From: Flavobacteriaceae bacterium
GTDB lineage: Bacteria; Bacteroidota; Bacteroidia; Flavobacteriales; Flavobacteriaceae
DNA length: 41,468 nt
Assembly: GCA_002721175.1 (NCBI GenBank)
Contig: PBJR01000012.1
Span: 1 to 41,468 of the forward strand
Direction of reading: 5' to 3'
In this document: in pieces, positions 1,896 to 14,211 of the stretch
Numbering within the stretch: the first letter of the stretch is position 1
How the letters are laid out: each line of letters starts with the position of its first letter
Translations under genes and position numbers: made by a program
The notes under the pieces: model-generated
The model's input: the letters and a program-made list of their open reading frames with translations, nothing else
The model's database searches: none
What the model was told of the DNA's origin: nothing

Positions 1896-4800
1896 ATGAA
1901 ATGTATATTTAATAAGGATAATATTTTAAAAAATATACTACCTGTTTTTTTTGTGGTTTGTTTATGCGATTTTGTTTTCGCCCAGCCGGTTAATATTGAT
2001 AATTATTCTGCCAATACATTTGGCCAGGTTCAATTATCAATTCAAGGTCAAGCTGATAAATACTATATTTTGCATGCACAACACAGTCCAACGTTCAATT
2101 GGGCTACCTCTTTGACCATTGGCGTTGATGGAACCATGATAATTTCAGAACCAGCTGCTGCTTACCCTTTGGAACAATATACCATTACGGCACATGATAT
2201 AGCCACCCCTGATGACTATGACGGTGATGGAATAGATGACCTTACTGAGTTTTATAATATGCCTACAGACTCACCTTTTAACTTTGCACCGCCAATCAAT
2301 TTAGTTGATGGCACAACATCTATCCCAAACGCAGAAACATTTAATCAATTAGCAACTGTTAACAATGTCGGTTGGGCACCATTTCTAGACGACCAACTTT
2401 ATGTAAAGTTTGGAATATTAAATAGAGATACAGATGAACCACAAGTCTACTTCATTAACAGTAACACCTATGTAATTCACGCAAGTTTTTGGAACGGAAT
2501 TGGTGCCTCTGTGAGTGGAGATGACGGCTCTGGAGAAATCGTTTTTAATCCAAATGACATATTGCCCTCTGGTGTAATAGGTAGTTATTCTTTCAATTTT
2601 TCTTTTGGAAATGCATACAACTTTGAGGAAACGCAAAGAACATATGAATTGCTCGTTGCCAGTATGCCATTTTTACAAAATAATATGAATCATTTTATTG
2701 GACAAGCTGATGAAAATGATCATATTAATAATTACGCTGATCAATTTACAGACTCCAGATTTGATGTCGTGTTAGAGACGGATGTTTTCGCTGAAGTTAA
2801 CTATATTCCTTTTCATGAAGCAGAGGGTTATGGATTCTTCAAACACATGCAAGATTTGAACGAAACACCAGGCAGTCGAGATATTGTTTTATATGATGCC
2901 TTACCTAACTCACTTCCCCGTGTAGGTGGGATCATTACTTCTGTGATACAAACCCCTTTATCACATGTAAATTTGAGAGCGATCCAAGACAATGTACCAA
3001 ATGCATACATAGCTAATCCACTCTCTAACAGCGAAATATCTAGTTTACTTAATGGATACATTTATTACAGGGTTGAAAGTGACCAATATGAAATAAGAGA
3101 GGCAACACTATCCGAAGTTAACGATTGGTATGAGGACTTAAGACCAACAGAGCCTCAAACTCCCATACGGGATCTGAGTATCACAGAAATAAAACCTCTT
3201 GATGACATCACTTTTGAAATGTCCAGTTCATTTGGTGCAAAATGCGCTAACTTAGGAACTATGAGGACATTTGAACTTCCTGATGGAACTATTCCAAATG
3301 GTTTTGGAATACCCTTCTACTTCTACGACCAGTTCATGTTATACAACAATTTTTACGAAGAAGTACAAACCATTATTGATAATCCTGCCTTTCAGAATGA
3401 TATTATTTTTAGAAATCAACGCCTTGATGATTTTAGAAGAGCTATTAGAGACGCTCCCATGCCGCAATGGATGTTAGAGGATTTACAAACTATGCAAGAC
3501 GCATTTCCCATTGACACTCCAATTAGAGTTAGATCTAGTACAAATAACGAGGACTTACCAGGATTTAGTGGTGCTGGACTATATACTTCAAAGACGCAAT
3601 ACCCAGATGAAGGACACATTTCAAAATCTGTAAAGCAAGTTTATGCAAGCATGTGGAACTTTAGAGCCTACGAAGAGAGAGATTTTTATAGAATTGACCA
3701 TTTCATGGCAGCCATGGGTTTGCTTTGCCATCCAAACTTCCAAGGAGAACAATCTAACGGAGTTGGTATTAGCATAGATCCAATTTACGAAACTGAAGAC
3801 ACTTTTTACCTAAACACACAAATTGGAGAGTCGCTCATAACAAATCCTGATCCAAACTCAGTGCCTGAAGAGATTTTATTATACAGAGATCCTACTCAAG
3901 GAGGGGGCTATTTAGTTTTAAGATTATCAAATTTAGTAAATCCTGGTGAGCTTGTCATGGATCAAATTTATCTTGACCAAATGAGAGATTATCTGACAGT
4001 GATTCATGACGAATTTTCAATATTATATGATGTGGTTGGTGCAGAAGGATTTGGTATGGATATTGAATATAAAGTAACTGCCCAAGAGCAATTAGCAATC
4101 AAACAAGCTAGACCCTGGGTTTCATTTTGGGCGGAAATTAATGGAGATTTTGATCTTGGGGTTGAGGCACTAATTAGTCCGCAATCCTCATCCAGCTTGA
4201 CAGACAATGAAATCGTAACAGTTAAGATTGCAAATCATGGTTTAAACAGTATGTCAGATTTTAACATTGAGTTAATAGTTAATAACCAATCAATTGAAAT
4301 CATCACTATAAATGAAACTCTGGAGCCATTTAGTGAATCAAACTACCAATTTTCCATTCCACAAAATTTTTCAAATATCGAAGATTATAACATCGCTGTT
4401 AATGTAAGTCATCCACTCGATGAATATGAAAACAATGATTCTTTGACTGTAGTAATAAGTAATGTACCAGAATTTGATGGATTAATTTCAATCGAAAATT
4501 TAACGGTATTATGCGACGAAATAATAGAACTTGATGTCAAAATTAGCAATAGTGGTGGAACGACCATAAATGAATTAGGAATTGAAACAATAGTGAATGG
4601 ATCTTCAATCAGTACAACGGATTACAATATTGATATTCCATTTGGAGAAGAAAATATAATTGAACTAATTGTTGATAACAACCTTCAGGAATTTAATGAA
4701 ATATCTTTAAATCTAGTAACTATAAATAATCAAACCAATGGAAACTCTATCTTTGATTCCGTTGACACAACTACATCGCTAGATTCAACATATGATATCA

Positions 4801-6608
4801 TTACTCTGATTATTAATGCCGACAATTACCCACAGGAAACTTCGTGGAAATTGTATGACAATAGCACCAACGAAATTGTAGCCACAGGCGCTCTAAGTTC
4901 AGGAACTGAAGTTTACACAGAAAATATTTGTGTAAATTATAATTCATGCTACACTCTTGATGTTTTCGACTCGTATGGAGATGGAATATGCTGTGGATAT
5001 GGGGAAGGAAACTTTTTAGTTCAAGACTCTAGTGGAAATATAATTTTGACAAACGATGGTGAGTTTGATAACTTTACTCAAGAAGTTTTCTGCCTAGATA
5101 ATGCAGGATGTGAAATAACAGCAGATTTTAATGTTACTAATGCAACTTCCACCAACTCGAATGATGGTGCAATCTCAATTATTGTTCAAACAGGCTTAAG
5201 CCCATTTCAATTTAGCATTGATGGGGGTATGACATTTTATGATACCAATTCATTTACTGATTTATCCCCCGGTATGTACGAAATCGTTATCCAAGGTGCT
5301 CTTGGAATCTGTTCATATAGCGAATCAATTTCAGTTGAAGCATGTGAATTGATTTCTGTTGATATTGTTTCTTCAGGCGTACCCTCGGTTGTCTCAAATG
5401 ATGGTACTATATCAATCTCTCCAAGTTCGGGAATCGCTCCCTATCAATATAGTATAGATGGAGGCCAAAATTTTTCAGAAAATAACCTTTTTGAAAATCT
5501 TCCAAGTGGGCTATACAATGTAGTTGTGAAGGATGCTTTAGAAGTTTGCCTTTATGAAGAGAGTATTCGTGTTGAAATCGAATCAATAATAATTAACGAG
5601 TTTAATTATCGATCAAGTGAAGAATTCGATCCAGAAGATTGGATTGAATTATATAATCCAAAATCATCATCTGTTGATCTCTCAAATTGGCAAATTAGGG
5701 ACGAAAACCCAAACCACATTTTTATGATACCTGAAGGAACAGTAATTGATGGCAACGGATTTTTAATAATTGTTAAAGATGAAAATAAGTTCTTGACCGC
5801 ATTTCCAGAAATAACATTTATTGGAGAACTTGGATTTGGTTTAGGTAGATCAGACGCAATAAGGTTATTCAATTCAGCCAATAAACTTATGGATGAGGTC
5901 TATTATGATGTGGAAAACCCTACTCCAAACTGCTCGCATACATTAAACATGTTTGATTCTTATGGTGATGGTTGGCAAGGGAATGCAGTCGATATTATTG
6001 CCAACGGACAAACTATTTACAATCAAGCAACTTTTGAAGATGGATTTTCAGCCAGCATAGAATTTGAAATTACACATGGAGAAATAATAGAGCTTAGCTG
6101 GACTGACGGATCTTGGTCTTCAGAAGTTTCATGGGAAATTGTCGATACTACAGGAGCAGTTCTTATCTCAGGTGAATATGGTGACACCTTGGTTGGACTA
6201 AATATTCAGGCTAATTGTCTGGTGGAAGACTCGGAATGGCCCACTTGTGCAGATGGAACCGGAAATACTTTAGAACTAATTGCACCTGATTTAGACAACT
6301 ATTTATCTGAATCATGGAGTTGTTTGAATGAAAATGGAAGTCCGAACGAAGTAAACAGTGATGCATTGTCAACTTTGAATAATACTACAGACTCATTAGT
6401 AATATATCCTAACCCTGTCATAAATATATTACACATAGTAAGCAATTACAATACTCAAAGTATTAAAATTCGCAATCTGCTTGGACAGCTGATCCTAGTT
6501 TCAGAAAATAAAAACTTCATTGACTTAAGCTCCCTTGAAACAGGCATATACTTAATTGAAATCGAGAATACAAATTCACTAGTTACTAAACGTATTATTA
6601 AGAAATAA
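1896..6608 (+). CDS. Large secreted protein: phosphohistidine-like + ATP-grasp (PPDK/GWD-like) core, SprB repeats, lamin-tail domain, T9SS tail
   Basis: 1570 residues. A Sec signal peptide (residues 1-30, ending VFA-Q) is followed by a beta-rich N-terminal region with a calcium-binding-type DYDGDGIDD segment (~107-116). Residues ~320-400 resemble the swivelling phosphohistidine domain of dikinases (GGIITS..QTPLSHVNLRA, candidate His357). Residues ~440-742 resemble the PEP-synthase/PPDK/glucan-water-dikinase ATP-grasp domain: GAKCANLG near 446, RVRSSTNNEDLPGFSGAG at 544-561, KQARPW near 738. His domain before ATP-grasp is the order seen in glucan water dikinases. Then follow CARDB-like segments (~755-975), a DSYGDG module (~985-1065), two SprB-type repeats (~1070-1230), a lamin-tail domain (~1230-1345), a second DSYGDGW module (~1347-1445) and a T9SS type A sorting domain from ~1499 (YPNP...KRIIKK). 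It should be exported and anchored or released at the surface. Catalytic activity is unproven; it may be a surface-binding protein with a repurposed fold. Confidence 0.85.
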   Translation: MKCIFNKDNILKNILPVFFVVCLCDFVFAQPVNIDNYSANTFGQVQLSIQGQADKYYILHAQHSPTFNWATSLTIGVDGTMIISEPAAAYPLEQYTITAHDIATPDDYDGDGIDDLTEFYNMPTDSPFNFAPPINLVDGTTSIPNAETFNQLATVNNVGWAPFLDDQLYVKFGILNRDTDEPQVYFINSNTYVIHASFWNGIGASVSGDDGSGEIVFNPNDILPSGVIGSYSFNFSFGNAYNFEETQRTYELLVASMPFLQNNMNHFIGQADENDHINNYADQFTDSRFDVVLETDVFAEVNYIPFHEAEGYGFFKHMQDLNETPGSRDIVLYDALPNSLPRVGGIITSVIQTPLSHVNLRAIQDNVPNAYIANPLSNSEISSLLNGYIYYRVESDQYEIREATLSEVNDWYEDLRPTEPQTPIRDLSITEIKPLDDITFEMSSSFGAKCANLGTMRTFELPDGTIPNGFGIPFYFYDQFMLYNNFYEEVQTIIDNPAFQNDIIFRNQRLDDFRRAIRDAPMPQWMLEDLQTMQDAFPIDTPIRVRSSTNNEDLPGFSGAGLYTSKTQYPDEGHISKSVKQVYASMWNFRAYEERDFYRIDHFMAAMGLLCHPNFQGEQSNGVGISIDPIYETEDTFYLNTQIGESLITNPDPNSVPEEILLYRDPTQGGGYLVLRLSNLVNPGELVMDQIYLDQMRDYLTVIHDEFSILYDVVGAEGFGMDIEYKVTAQEQLAIKQARPWVSFWAEINGDFDLGVEALISPQSSSSLTDNEIVTVKIANHGLNSMSDFNIELIVNNQSIEIITINETLEPFSESNYQFSIPQNFSNIEDYNIAVNVSHPLDEYENNDSLTVVISNVPEFDGLISIENLTVLCDEIIELDVKISNSGGTTINELGIETIVNGSSISTTDYNIDIPFGEENIIELIVDNNLQEFNEISLNLVTINNQTNGNSIFDSVDTTTSLDSTYDIITLIINADNYPQETSWKLYDNSTNEIVATGALSSGTEVYTENICVNYNSCYTLDVFDSYGDGICCGYGEGNFLVQDSSGNIILTNDGEFDNFTQEVFCLDNAGCEITADFNVTNATSTNSNDGAISIIVQTGLSPFQFSIDGGMTFYDTNSFTDLSPGMYEIVIQGALGICSYSESISVEACELISVDIVSSGVPSVVSNDGTISISPSSGIAPYQYSIDGGQNFSENNLFENLPSGLYNVVVKDALEVCLYEESIRVEIESIIINEFNYRSSEEFDPEDWIELYNPKSSSVDLSNWQIRDENPNHIFMIPEGTVIDGNGFLIIVKDENKFLTAFPEITFIGELGFGLGRSDAIRLFNSANKLMDEVYYDVENPTPNCSHTLNMFDSYGDGWQGNAVDIIANGQTIYNQATFEDGFSASIEFEITHGEIIELSWTDGSWSSEVSWEIVDTTGAVLISGEYGDTLVGLNIQANCLVEDSEWPTCADGTGNTLELIAPDLDNYLSESWSCLNENGSPNEVNSDALSTLNNTTDSLVIYPNPVINILHIVSNYNTQSIKIRNLLGQLILVSENKNFIDLSSLETGIYLIEIENTNSLVTKRIIKK

Positions 6609-9828: not shown

Positions 9829-12800
9829 TCAGTTTAGTTTATAAAAAACCTTTTCTCTATCCAAATCATTCAAAAGATCTTGAGAAATTTTAATCTTCTT
9901 TTTGCGACTTTTAAAGTCTACTTTATAACTTTCATCATTATCATAAACAACAAAACTCAAATTATGATTACCATTGTGACCCTTTAACAAATTATCTATT
10001 TTTGAAATCATTTGATCATCAAGATCACTAATGTTTAGTTGGATTGAAAGTCTTTTTGCGTATGAATCTAGAACATCATGTAATAATTGGAAACTATTAA
10101 ATTGAATTCTTGCATTTCCTTTTTTTCCCGTCTCTTTGTTGACCCACCCGTCACGAACTAATACACGTACAAATAAGAAATTATTTAACATCAAAAAATG
10201 TCTGAAGCGAAGATACTCTTCGCCAAAAATCTTAAAATTAAAATTGCCAGTATAATCCTCAATGGTGAAACTTGCCCATCCCTTACCCTGACGACTAACT
10301 CGGTGCTGAACATCTGTCAGCACTCCACCAAAAATTAATTCTTTATTTAACAAAGACCCAAGATTATTAAATAACTCCACTTTTGCATTACAAAAATTTT
10401 GCATTTCAATTTTGAAATCATCTAGTGGGTGACCAGAAATATATATTCCTACAACCTCCCGCTCTCTTGCTAATTTTTTCATAGTATCCCATGGGTCACA
10501 GGGAGGAATATCAGGTTCAGTAAAGTGATTTTCATTTGAATCTCCAAATAAGCTAATTTGAGATGAGTTTTGGCTATCTTGGAACCTGTGTGCAAATTTT
10601 AATATTTTTTCAATGAATGTTATATCATTACCCAAGTGATGAAAATATTGCGCTCTGTGGGTGTTTGAAAAACAATCAAATCCACCTGCATTAGCTAAAT
10701 TTTCAAAAGCCTTTTTGTTCGCTGATCTTAGATCAATTCTCTTAGCAAGATCAAAAATAGATCTATAAAGGCCATTATTTTTTCTCTCATCAACAATTGT
10801 TTTTACAGCAGCCTGGCCAACTCCTTTGATTGCTCCCATGCCGAAACGGATCGCATTATCTTTATTAACCGAAAACTTATAATAGCTTTCATTAATATCA
10901 GGACCAAGAACTTTCAATTTCATGCGTTTGGCTTCCTCCATAAAAAATGAAACTTGTTTTATATCATTCATATTATTCGATAATACTGCAGCCATATATT
11001 CAGCTGGATAATGAGATTTTAGATAAGCTGTTTGGTAAGCTATCCAAGCATAACAAGTTGAATGTGATTTATTAAAGGCGTAACTAGCAAATTTTTCCCA
11101 ATCAGTCCAAATCTTTTCTAATTTTTCCGAATCAAACCCTTTTTCACTAGCCTGATCAATGAACTTAGGCTTCATTTTGTCTAGTACAGGTTTTAATTTC
11201 TTTCCCATTGCTTTACGTAAAACATCTGCCTCACCTTTAGTAAAATCTGCCAATTTTTGGGATAATAGCATAACTTGCTCTTGATAAACAGTTATCCCAT
11301 ATGTCTCTTTTAATATTTCCTCCATTTCAGGTAAATCATATGAAATAATTTCATCTCCTTTTTTTCTTCTTATAAAACTAGGAATGTATTCAAGTGGACC
11401 AGGTCTATACAAAGCATTCATTGCAATCAAATCTGCAAAAACAGATGGTTTTAAATCGCGCATGTACTTTTGCATACCGGCGGATTCGTACTGAAAAATA
11501 CCAATTGTTTCACCACGTTGAAATAGTTCGTAAGTTTGTTTATCATCCAAAGGGAATTCCTCTGGATTTAGTGATATACCATGCTTTGCTTTAATTATTT
11601 TTACAGTATCCTTTATTAACGTTAGTGTTTTCAGACCTAAAAAGTCCATTTTTAATAATCCAGCGTCCTCAACAACAGCGTTATCAAATTGTGTAACAAA
11701 TAAATCTGAGTCCTTAGCAGTTGCGATTGGTACATAATTGGTTATGTCACTAGGTGTAATGATTACTCCGCAAGCGTGAATACCAGTATTGCGCAAAGAA
11801 CCTTCAAGAACTTTAGCCTGATTAATGGTCTCTGCTTCAAGATCATCACCCTCTGAAATTGTTAATAGTTGATTAATTAGCTCCATATCTTCAGCACGAA
11901 ACTTCTGCCTCAAACTATTTTCATCACTATTGAAAATATTGTTTAGCTTAGCCATGTTAGGCACTAATTTTGCAATCCTATCCGCATCATTCAATGGTAA
12001 GTCTAAAACTCTGGCCGTGTCACGTATCGACGATTTTGCAGCCATTGTACCATAAGTCATAATTTGAGCTACCTGGTTGGATCCGTATTTCTTGATAACA
12101 TAATCAATAACTTTTTGACGGCCCTCATCGTCAAAATCAATATCAATATCTGGCATACTTATTCTATCGGGATTTAAAAATCTCTCAAAGAGTAAATCAT
12201 ATTTGATTGGATCTATATTTGTAATCCATAAACAATAGGCTACAACTGATCCAGCAACTGAGCCTCTTCCAGGTCCAACAGAAACCCCCAGGTTTCGTGC
12301 TTCCTTTATAAAATCTTCAACAATTAAAAAATAGCCTGGATAGCCTGTCTTCTGTATTGTATTTAATTCAAATTCAATTCGATCTTTTAAGTCATCTGAA
12401 ATAATGCCATAGCGCTTTTCTGCGCCCAAGTAAGTTAAATGGCGTAGATATAAATTTTCTGCTTTTTTTTCATTCCCATTACTACTTCCAATGTCAACAA
12501 ATTTTTTTGGAATATTAAATTTTGGCAATAATACTTCACGCGTTAACTCGAATTCTTCAATTTTATCATAAATGATTTGCATGTTGAGTATAGCTTCAGG
12601 AATTTCTCTAAATAATTTCTTCATTGACATGGAATCTTTAAAATAATATTCTTGATTCGGTAAACCATAACGGTATCCCCTTCCATGACCAATAGGAGTA
12701 GATTGTTTTTCGCCCTCTTTTACACACAACAAAATATCATGAGCATTAGCTTCACTTTTTGTAGAATAATAAATATTATTTGTTGCAACTAATGAAGTAT

Positions 12801-14211
12801 CATGTTTTTTTGAAAACTCAATCAAGACTGGTGTCACCCTGTCCTCATCATCCTGTCCATGCCTCATTACCTCAAGAAAAAAATCTTTTCCAAACTCTTT
12901 TTTCCACCACATCAATGACTGCTCAGCTTGTTCCTTGCCAACATTTAAAATCTTCGATGATATCTCACCTTTTAAATTGCCTGACAAAACAATAATATCA
13001 CTCTTATATTTTTTTACAATTTCTTTGTCAATACGTGGAACATAGTAGAACCCTTCAGTGTAGGCTAAAGATGCCATTTTTATAAGATTTTGATATCCTG
13101 TCTTATTTTTTGCTAGAAAAACAGCCTGATATCCGTTATCTTTATGAGATTTGTTTTTATGGTCTTCACAAATAAAAAATTCACAACCTAAAATTGGCTT
13201 AATTGGTTTCAGATCAATTACTTCATCATTTTCATTAGATTGAGCTTTTTTTGATAAAAGATTTTTATTGTAATTTTTTATTTCCTTAACAAAATGAAAA
13301 GAACCCATCATGTTGCCAAGATCAGTCAATGCTACTGCAATCATTTTGTTCTGCGATGTCATTTTAACCAATTTTTTTATGCTTATAGTAGATTGAAGCA
13401 CAGAGAATTGGGAATGATTATGTAAATGAATTACTTCTGCATCTGCCATAACCTGAGGTAAATCGCCATCGTTATCAATTTTATTGTTCTTCAATGATTG
13501 TTTTTCAGCTTCCTGAAGTTTAAATGCTTGTTTCTTTAAATTTTCATGGCGAAGACCCAATAATTGTATTGGCAGTGAATTTTTATTTTTAAAAATTTTA
13601 ATATATTCAATTTCGCAATCTAATTCATCAATTGAAAAAATTTCTCTCCTTAAAAGCTCGAAAAAACAGCGTGCTGTTGCTTCAACGTCAGCAGTTGCAT
13701 TATGTGCTTCAATAAATTTTTCATCAAATAAAAAATAATGCAATTCGGTTAGAGTTGGTAACTTATACTTTCCGCCACGGCCACCTGGAAGTTTACAAAG
13801 ATTTGCCGTAACTTCAGTACATGTATCCAAAACTTTTAAATCTTTTAGATTGGTTTCTAATTGAACCCTGTAAAACTCACAAGAAATTATTTTGATATCA
13901 AAACCAACGTTTTGACCAACAATAAACTTTGATTTTGAAATCACCTCATTAAATTTTTCTAAAACACCAGCTAATGAATCTCCCTTCAAAGTTGCTAAGG
14001 CAGTTGAAATTCCATGAATTTTTTCCGCATCATATGGAATATTAAATCCGTCAGGATGTATCATATACGCCTGGTGATCAATACAAACTCCCATATCATC
14101 ATGTAGTTGCCAAGCGATTTGTACACAGCGGGGCCAATTATTTACATCGCTTGTTGGAGAATCCCACTTTTTTGGAAGTCCTGTAGTTTCTGTGTCAAAT
14201 ATTAAATACAT
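9829..14211 (-). CDS. dnaE: DNA polymerase III alpha subunit with fused N-terminal 3'-5' exonuclease
   Basis: 1460 residues, about 300 more than E. coli DnaE, because a DEDDh exonuclease is fused at the N-terminus (residues ~1-195): ExoI FDTETTG with Asp6/Glu8, ExoII GQNVGFD with Asp105, ExoIII HNATADVEA with His170/Asp175. A PHP domain follows (HLHNHSQFSVLQ from ~262), then the polymerase III palm and fingers with GPGRGSVAGS and the catalytic PDIDIDFDD near residue 690, an HhH region (FGMGAIKGVG) and an OB fold (~1285-1365). It is the replicative polymerase, with proofreading apparently built into the same chain. The fused form is, as far as I recall, normal for flavobacteria. All expected catalytic acids are visible. 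ATG at 14211 directly starts the exonuclease first strand, so the start is firm. Confidence 0.97.
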   Translation of the reverse strand: MYLIFDTETTGLPKKWDSPTSDVNNWPRCVQIAWQLHDDMGVCIDHQAYMIHPDGFNIPYDAEKIHGISTALATLKGDSLAGVLEKFNEVISKSKFIVGQNVGFDIKIISCEFYRVQLETNLKDLKVLDTCTEVTANLCKLPGGRGGKYKLPTLTELHYFLFDEKFIEAHNATADVEATARCFFELLRREIFSIDELDCEIEYIKIFKNKNSLPIQLLGLRHENLKKQAFKLQEAEKQSLKNNKIDNDGDLPQVMADAEVIHLHNHSQFSVLQSTISIKKLVKMTSQNKMIAVALTDLGNMMGSFHFVKEIKNYNKNLLSKKAQSNENDEVIDLKPIKPILGCEFFICEDHKNKSHKDNGYQAVFLAKNKTGYQNLIKMASLAYTEGFYYVPRIDKEIVKKYKSDIIVLSGNLKGEISSKILNVGKEQAEQSLMWWKKEFGKDFFLEVMRHGQDDEDRVTPVLIEFSKKHDTSLVATNNIYYSTKSEANAHDILLCVKEGEKQSTPIGHGRGYRYGLPNQEYYFKDSMSMKKLFREIPEAILNMQIIYDKIEEFELTREVLLPKFNIPKKFVDIGSSNGNEKKAENLYLRHLTYLGAEKRYGIISDDLKDRIEFELNTIQKTGYPGYFLIVEDFIKEARNLGVSVGPGRGSVAGSVVAYCLWITNIDPIKYDLLFERFLNPDRISMPDIDIDFDDEGRQKVIDYVIKKYGSNQVAQIMTYGTMAAKSSIRDTARVLDLPLNDADRIAKLVPNMAKLNNIFNSDENSLRQKFRAEDMELINQLLTISEGDDLEAETINQAKVLEGSLRNTGIHACGVIITPSDITNYVPIATAKDSDLFVTQFDNAVVEDAGLLKMDFLGLKTLTLIKDTVKIIKAKHGISLNPEEFPLDDKQTYELFQRGETIGIFQYESAGMQKYMRDLKPSVFADLIAMNALYRPGPLEYIPSFIRRKKGDEIISYDLPEMEEILKETYGITVYQEQVMLLSQKLADFTKGEADVLRKAMGKKLKPVLDKMKPKFIDQASEKGFDSEKLEKIWTDWEKFASYAFNKSHSTCYAWIAYQTAYLKSHYPAEYMAAVLSNNMNDIKQVSFFMEEAKRMKLKVLGPDINESYYKFSVNKDNAIRFGMGAIKGVGQAAVKTIVDERKNNGLYRSIFDLAKRIDLRSANKKAFENLANAGGFDCFSNTHRAQYFHHLGNDITFIEKILKFAHRFQDSQNSSQISLFGDSNENHFTEPDIPPCDPWDTMKKLAREREVVGIYISGHPLDDFKIEMQNFCNAKVELFNNLGSLLNKELIFGGVLTDVQHRVSRQGKGWASFTIEDYTGNFNFKIFGEEYLRFRHFLMLNNFLFVRVLVRDGWVNKETGKKGNARIQFNSFQLLHDVLDSYAKRLSIQLNISDLDDQMISKIDNLLKGHNGNHNLSFVVYDNDESYKVDFKSRKKKIKISQDLLNDLDREKVFYKLN

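Follow-up and report, generated by a model that had tools for sequence, protein, structure and literature searches.

A predicted surface-exported dikinase-like protein and its linked histidine phosphatase in Flavobacteriaceae: a candidate extracytoplasmic phosphate writer and eraser

Dikinases are textbook enzymes of the cytoplasm or the plastid, where they are found because they need ATP. What, then, might a dikinase-like protein do outside the cell? This question is raised by a 41,468-nucleotide stretch of contig PBJR01000012.1 (assembly GCA_002721175.1) from a Flavobacteriaceae bacterium, analysed here at its full length and called the window. Its forward strand encodes a dikinase-like protein of 1570 amino acids with export signals (1896–6608); unless stated otherwise, all features given below lie on this strand. 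An earlier note, made from the letters alone, had placed a 1570-residue chain at these positions, which the open reading frame and its translation bear out, and had proposed either a surface phosphotransferase acting on glycans or a repurposed binding fold. The genome assembly comprises 1.67 Mb and is 87% complete; the closest records in genome_contigs are metagenome-assembled genomes titled Formosa sp. and Flavobacteriaceae, and the titles of related records indicate that the host bacterium is probably marine. No exported dikinase is described in the titles or abstract openings of the open-access literature searched, and the word 'dikinase' is absent from the main text of a Formosa proteome paper (PMC6246565). 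Elsewhere in the window, a DNA polymerase III alpha gene (9829–14211, reverse strand) encodes an N-terminal exonuclease on the same chain (RNase_T, residues 3–183).

The dikinase-like chain begins with a Sec signal peptide (residues 1–29; 1896–1982), cut after ...FVFA by inspection, and ends in a T9SS type A sorting tail (Por_Secre_tail, residues 1503–1568; 6402–6599; Pfam E 1.1e-11), on which NCBIfam agrees; both signals had been recognized in the earlier note. With these two signals and the T9SS gene sprA present in the genome, the protein is a predicted T9SS cargo. The N-terminus is hydrophobic in 76 of the 77 relatives with a frame long enough to include it. Thirty-four C-termini (the window protein and 33 of 63 complete ones) were scanned with Pfam at E <= 0.01: the T9SS tail and a CARDB domain were matched in all 34, SprB in 30 and the lamin tail domain (LTD) in 11, so that the LTD is optional and the sorting tail not. 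In the window protein, the CARDB domain (residues 753–837; 4152–4406; E 2.5e-4, slightly under the cut-off) adds to the domains listed previously, and the lamin-tail domain named there is recovered as LTD at residues 1230–1337 (5583–5906; E 5e-15). Of the several SprB repeats that had been claimed, one stretch is significant alone (residues 1167–1192; 5394–5471; E 3.2e-8).

The catalytic core contains an ATP-grasp module (residues 428–744; 3177–4127), delimited by Pfam, alignment and structural model. Pfam PPDK_N matches residues 445–740 (3228–4115) with E 1.2e-21 (77.8 bits; cut-off 27) and is found in all 46 members of the family alignment (A1); the NCBIfam PEP synthase model matches with E 3e-18 (65.3 bits; cut-off 598). 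The ATP-grasp segment singled out earlier, RVRSSTNNEDLPGFSGAG, is located at residues 544–561. A search with the core found 162 relatives. The 80 best were retained, most of them in records titled Flavobacteriales, Crocinitomicaceae or Saprospiraceae; their cores are 65–86% identical to that of the window protein, which is high for a secreted protein. Excluding five loci with frames of <=1000 amino acids leaves 75 relatives, and in all 75 Lys449, Arg546, Asp722, Glu724, Gln737 and Arg739, together with His357, are invariant. These seven residues are also kept in all nine rows of a divergent alignment, which includes a tail-bearing form at 55% identity, periplasmic-type forms at 25–26% and Streptomyces homologues at 23–24%. 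The six ATP-grasp residues, which we take from the pyruvate phosphate dikinase (PPDK) and rifampin phosphotransferase (RPH) literature to constitute the nucleotide site, recur at matching positions in all 15 PEP-synthase ATP-grasp rows aligned (the remainder of 35 once near-copies were removed). The E-value and the conservation in 75 relatives rule out a chance match for the ATP-grasp domain. The dikinase-like core of the earlier note, along with the PPDK_N search and the check for missing residues that it had proposed, is thus upheld with the nucleotide residues and His357 all present, and by its sequence the protein is an intact enzyme.

The module that would carry the phosphate is more difficult to assign. 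The segment QTPLSHVNLRA begins at residue 352, which makes the candidate phospho-acceptor His357 (codon 2964–2966) correctly numbered, and lies in a module of approximately residues 311–410 (2826–3125) delimited by alignments and profile comparisons. Residues 1–445, this segment included, give no Pfam match. The profile GWD1_pHisD was expected to score well here, an expectation not borne out in the genomes searched: it matches 14 of the 46 A1 members weakly at E <= 1 (best E 0.0088), exceeds its cut-off in none of 13 whole genomes and has no match at all in the genome of the window. Eight of nine sub-threshold matches fall inside exported dikinases, yet five of 14 control genomes also give matches. 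Profile comparison relates the window family to an exported type of about 970 residues (the A3 type, described below) with E 3.2e-10, and that type to the His domains of PEP synthases with E 6.7e-5 and a probability of 64%; the direct comparison of the window module with the PEP-synthase His domains is non-significant (E 0.47), in a register that pairs His357 with the catalytic histidine. PEP-synthase His segments were also tried as alignment rows and excluded, MAFFT having missed His357 at all five segment lengths. Based on the homology through an intermediate family, the weak GWD1_pHisD matches and the invariance of His357, residues 311–410 are likely, though not proved, to be a phosphohistidine module. 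The order noted previously, with the histidine ahead of the ATP-grasp residues (449–739) as in glucan water dikinase (GWD), holds.

Two structure predictions complement these assignments. The first AlphaFold model has a poorly predicted core (mean pLDDT 59.5; 24 for the block around His357), the 46 close relatives in its alignment being too little diverse. It gives pLDDT values of 85–96 for residues 28–157, which encompass an N-terminal beta domain (1983–2309) with invariant Asp residues and a DxDGDGxDD motif at residues 107–115 that we presume to be calcium-repeat-like. A second model of residues 295–748, based on 32 rows that include the 15 PEP-synthase rows, reaches a mean pLDDT of 73.5, with residues 428–744 mostly at 63–98 apart from a few lower blocks, residues 295–374 at 27–54 and the block around His357 at 29. 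A Foldseek search with this model places rifampin phosphotransferase first (E 2.4e-15), followed by PEP synthase, HpeI and PPDK. In VIA-align, the modelled residues 428–744 superpose on RPH with AMPPNP with Z 29.9 and an r.m.s.d. of 2.4 over 290 aligned residues, and on PEP synthase, as had been suggested previously, with Z 29.6, a tie; the PEP-synthase rows in the alignment bias the model, so that these scores confirm the fold rather than discover it. Between the beta domain and the His module, the divergent alignment delimits a conserved N-module (residues 139–310; 2310–2825), a candidate acceptor-binding region in which Lys171 and His195 are invariant also in the periplasmic-type and Streptomyces relatives of the nine-row alignment. 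A structure search with the N-module gave no convincing match, and as the query was part of the poor model this is no evidence for a new fold.

Our best clue to function is a gene that the earlier note overlooked. Immediately upstream, at 1350–1877, Pfam and the neighbourhood analysis identify a partner histidine phosphatase with an export signal (PF00300, E 5.9e-11). ATG 1350 is its most plausible start codon and gives the lipoprotein-like leader MEKIFVIFIFLISSC; the listed open reading frame from GTG 1311 runs into the previous gene. Eighteen bases separate its stop codon from the ATG of the dikinase, and the same gap is found in a second copy of the locus on contig C19. Neighbours (open reading frames of >=110 amino acids within four positions of the dikinase) were clustered across 81 loci, namely the 80 relatives kept as the best of 162 and the redundant copy in the window genome (L111). 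No neighbour other than the phosphatase is widely conserved: it is present at 62 of the 81 loci, the next commonest family at ten. It lies directly upstream on the same strand in 58 of 73, three times directly downstream on the opposite strand and once two open reading frames downstream. The peptidase, photolyase and DUF58 neighbours in the window are common to no more than three other loci, all of them close relatives.

Two of the 62 matched loci have a frame broken at the match; the remaining 60 phosphatases show no variation in the catalytic Arg-His, Arg and second His or in two cysteines, and the N-terminus is hydrophobic (60/60), with a lipobox-like motif in 22. By PF00300 and these catalytic residues, which it shares with SixA-like enzymes, the partner is assigned to the branch 1 histidine phosphatase superfamily; the SixA model itself matches with E 4.6e-4, under its cut-off. 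It differs from SixA-type phosphatases in its export signal, in the two invariant cysteines and in the linkage of its gene to a dikinase. At 19 of the 81 loci no phosphatase was found within four open reading frames; seven of these have no upstream open reading frame in the record and 12 have one. Seven of the 12 are Saprospiraceae loci (L101, L103, L104 and L107–L110) with 65–70% identity, and the other two of the nine Saprospiraceae loci in this range (L105 and L106) have no upstream open reading frame in the record. That the phosphatase also neighbours the divergent exported forms was considered and ruled out for the 11 regions read around more distant forms, none of which contained it.

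The second locus L111 (G000:C19:38000-52000) is 99% identical to that in the window. It was considered as a paralogue and rejected; the lengths, strands and order of its neighbours are identical, so it is probably assembly redundancy. A third PPDK_N protein (C24; L112 5851–8166) is of another type, has no signal by eye and ends in a phosphohistidine-like segment; by eye, its gene has those of a glycosyltransferase and a radical-SAM-like protein beside it, and it may be from a different organism.

Across 60 genomes (its own and those of 59 relatives), the window protein has a match at E <= 0.001 in 24, its own included. The match extends over nearly the whole query in 12 of the 59 relative genomes, and nine of ten same-genus genomes carry the protein; phylum-wide, under a strict cut-off, relatives are rare (eight of 296 genomes, including its own). 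Viral contigs contain no relatives of the window protein or of queries A2, A3 and A6; PEP-synthase-like genes do occur on IMG/VR viral contigs (L131–L143 and L150–L174), some longer than 200 kb. On plasmids, two Streptomyces homologues reach into the N-module, and the other matches cover the ATP-grasp part, many being annotated as PEP synthase. The two Streptomyces homologues (L113 3196–8023 and L114 3193–7873) share all three modules, show no signal by eye and lie between a further ATP-grasp gene and an MFS transporter, an arrangement resembling a small-molecule cluster. Exported forms of about 625 residues (L175–L179) have a hydrophobic N-terminus by eye, with no phosphatase in the regions read, and the one scanned (L177) gave no match to the T9SS tail. 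In a tree of ATP-grasp segments, the T9SS and periplasmic-type forms group together (100/98; 13 and two rows); the sampled PEP synthases form a group of their own with 100/100 support, as does the A3 type, also at 100/100. Nine of 58 rows were lost from this tree (seven exported forms in which the segment pattern was unmatched and two RPH-like proteins), leaving only two rows of the 625-residue type; given a program warning about meeting long branches, its deep forks are used solely to tell these groups apart.

Its ATP-grasp domain places the window protein in the dikinase superfamily, where several known systems invite comparison. With PEP synthase and PPDK it shares the ATP-grasp module and the nucleotide residues; unlike them, it has the reversed module order and export signals, and it falls outside the tree group of the sampled PEP synthases. 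Since no Pfam match to a PEP-utilising barrel was obtained in the whole window protein or the A1 members and the order is reversed, the protein is neither a PEP synthase nor a PPDK. RPH is the best structural match of the ATP-grasp module, in the tie with PEP synthase mentioned above; the window protein differs from it in its N-terminal His module and its export signals, and the RPH model scores 35.6 bits against a cut-off of 999. In the plant GWD enzymes the His module precedes the ATP-grasp module. This is the order of the window protein as well, for which, as for GWD and phosphoglucan water dikinase, dikinase chemistry would be expected. The window protein, in contrast to GWD, is bacterial and exported, and the above-cut-off GWD1_pHisD match that would assign it to the GWD family by sequence is absent. 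No carbohydrate-binding family was matched in Pfam scans of the window protein and the A1 members. The partner phosphatase, for its part, belongs to a different superfamily from the plant enzyme SEX4. According to PMC12892837, phosphoglucan phosphatases such as SEX4 act in plants in the same pathway as the dikinases, and the parallel with the pair in the window is suggestive.

On balance, we favour the reading that the window protein is a catalytically active member of the dikinase superfamily that transfers phosphate at the cell surface and, with its phosphatase, would form an extracytoplasmic phosphate writer and eraser. In favour of this reading are the two export signals, the ATP-grasp module with its nucleotide residues, the invariant His357 and the linked, intact phosphatase. 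The ATP-grasp module would use ATP to phosphorylate His357, with release of AMP and Pi, and the His module would then swing over to the N-module (residues 139–310), where the phosphate would pass to an acceptor, which may be a hydroxyl group on an algal or surface polymer; that the acceptor is a glycan is a guess. The phosphatase encoded upstream would strip the phosphate from the product or reset the histidine. PF03219, the family of NTT-type transporters, has no match in the genome of the window (87% complete) or in ten same-genus genomes, for which reason the donor is taken to be extracellular ATP; presumably the enzyme meets ATP outside the cell, or else uses another donor. ATP is scarce outside cells, which counts against this reading, as do the missing NTT-type match, the poorly modelled and, in direct comparison, non-significant His module, the 12 loci that have an upstream open reading frame but no phosphatase within four, and the 11 phosphatase-free regions around more distant forms.

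The same pair of proteins might instead serve phosphate scavenging, the dikinase and the phosphatase together turning dissolved ATP into AMP and two Pi, with hydrolysis of the His357 intermediate by the phosphatase, and so feeding the cell phosphate or adenine nucleotides. Both proteins are intact and linked and have export signals, and the phosphatase belongs to the superfamily of the phosphohistidine phosphatase SixA, all of which this proposal would accommodate. We nevertheless regard it as unlikely, as a plain nucleotidase would be a simpler route to the same end and as an N-module with invariant Lys171 and His195, common to the Streptomyces relatives, suggests an acceptor.

Phosphohistidine may also activate a substrate for bond formation rather than for stable phosphorylation, the mechanism of PigC and RedH, two prodigiosin ligases, and an ATP-driven ligase or condensing enzyme of this sort is a further, rather improbable, alternative. 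The ATP-grasp module is indeed matched by the PigC model (E 5.2e-8) and the RedH model (E 2.2e-4), in both cases far under the cut-off, and the cluster-like surroundings of the Streptomyces relatives would fit; the matches are, however, weaker than that of PEP synthase, and a phosphatase partner suits phosphorylation better. Equally doubtful is that the enzyme acts before or during export, in the periplasm and on cell-envelope material, its surface location being secondary. The related exported dikinases L177 and L182, in which the T9SS tail was not matched, look periplasmic and the lipobox-like start of 22 of the 60 partner phosphatases points the same way, whereas the T9SS tail is present in every clade member scanned. 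A repurposed binding or scaffold fold without catalysis, the other option of the earlier note, might be imagined given how little ATP there is outside cells and the adhesion-type C-terminal domains, but the invariance of His357 and the six ATP-site residues and the linkage to an intact phosphatase gene make such a decayed fold very improbable.

How an extracytoplasmic dikinase might obtain ATP is illustrated differently by a sister family, the A3 type. These exported dikinases of about 970 residues resemble the window family in having a hydrophobic N-terminus, a His module followed by an ATP-grasp module and the same seven residues (hydrophobic N-terminus and all seven residues in each of the 30 members examined of 65); they differ in the N-terminal half and in having a transporter homologue in place of the phosphatase. 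In the one member scanned (L182), PPDK_N is the only Pfam domain, with no match to the T9SS tail. Near the A3-type dikinase lies a membrane protein of about 940 residues, with HEAT repeats in all three copies scanned. Two of the three score above the TLC ATP/ADP transporter family cut-off, as does the copy in a fourth genome, and the third matches MFS only, below the cut-off. Among 299 Flavobacteriaceae genomes, at presence cut-offs of 1e-60 for the dikinase and 1e-30 for the transporter homologue, each is found in 65, and these are the identical 65 (log10 hypergeometric p of -66.7, with shared ancestry ignored). The two genes lie within 20 kb of each other in 60 of the 65, always convergent and with a median gap of 1343 bases; they are on different contigs in four and 2 Mb apart in one. 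In the three loci scanned, a Beta-lactamase2-family gene lies between them (L182 4129–5391, L183 8474–9547 and L184 8094–9353), and the fourth locus of this set (L182–L185; genomes G018, G020, G024 and G034) has a similar intervening gene by eye, plus an additional one. Of 296 genomes across the phylum, ten have the A3 dikinase and 27 the transporter homologue (E <= 1e-15), including all ten, in two of which the homologue is a more distant one (E 9.2e-95 and 3.5e-25); 17 genomes have the homologue without the dikinase. The transporter homologue suggests a possible ATP route to the periplasmic-type A3 dikinases. The function of NTT-HEAT transporters is given as unknown in PMC5381601, and the sister system points to a role for them that can be tested, as well as to a testable source of periplasmic ATP.

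More tentatively, the two families may represent a general strategy of ATP-driven extracytoplasmic phosphotransfer in Bacteroidota, with two solutions to the supply of ATP: in one, an NTT-HEAT transporter would feed a periplasmic dikinase; in the other, a surface dikinase carried by the T9SS would use surrounding ATP and, together with an exported phosphatase, place a reversible phosphate mark on polymers. If the reading of the window pair as writer and eraser is true, a conserved exported dikinase and an exported phosphatase in Bacteroidota would amount to a system for the reversible phosphorylation of extracellular material.
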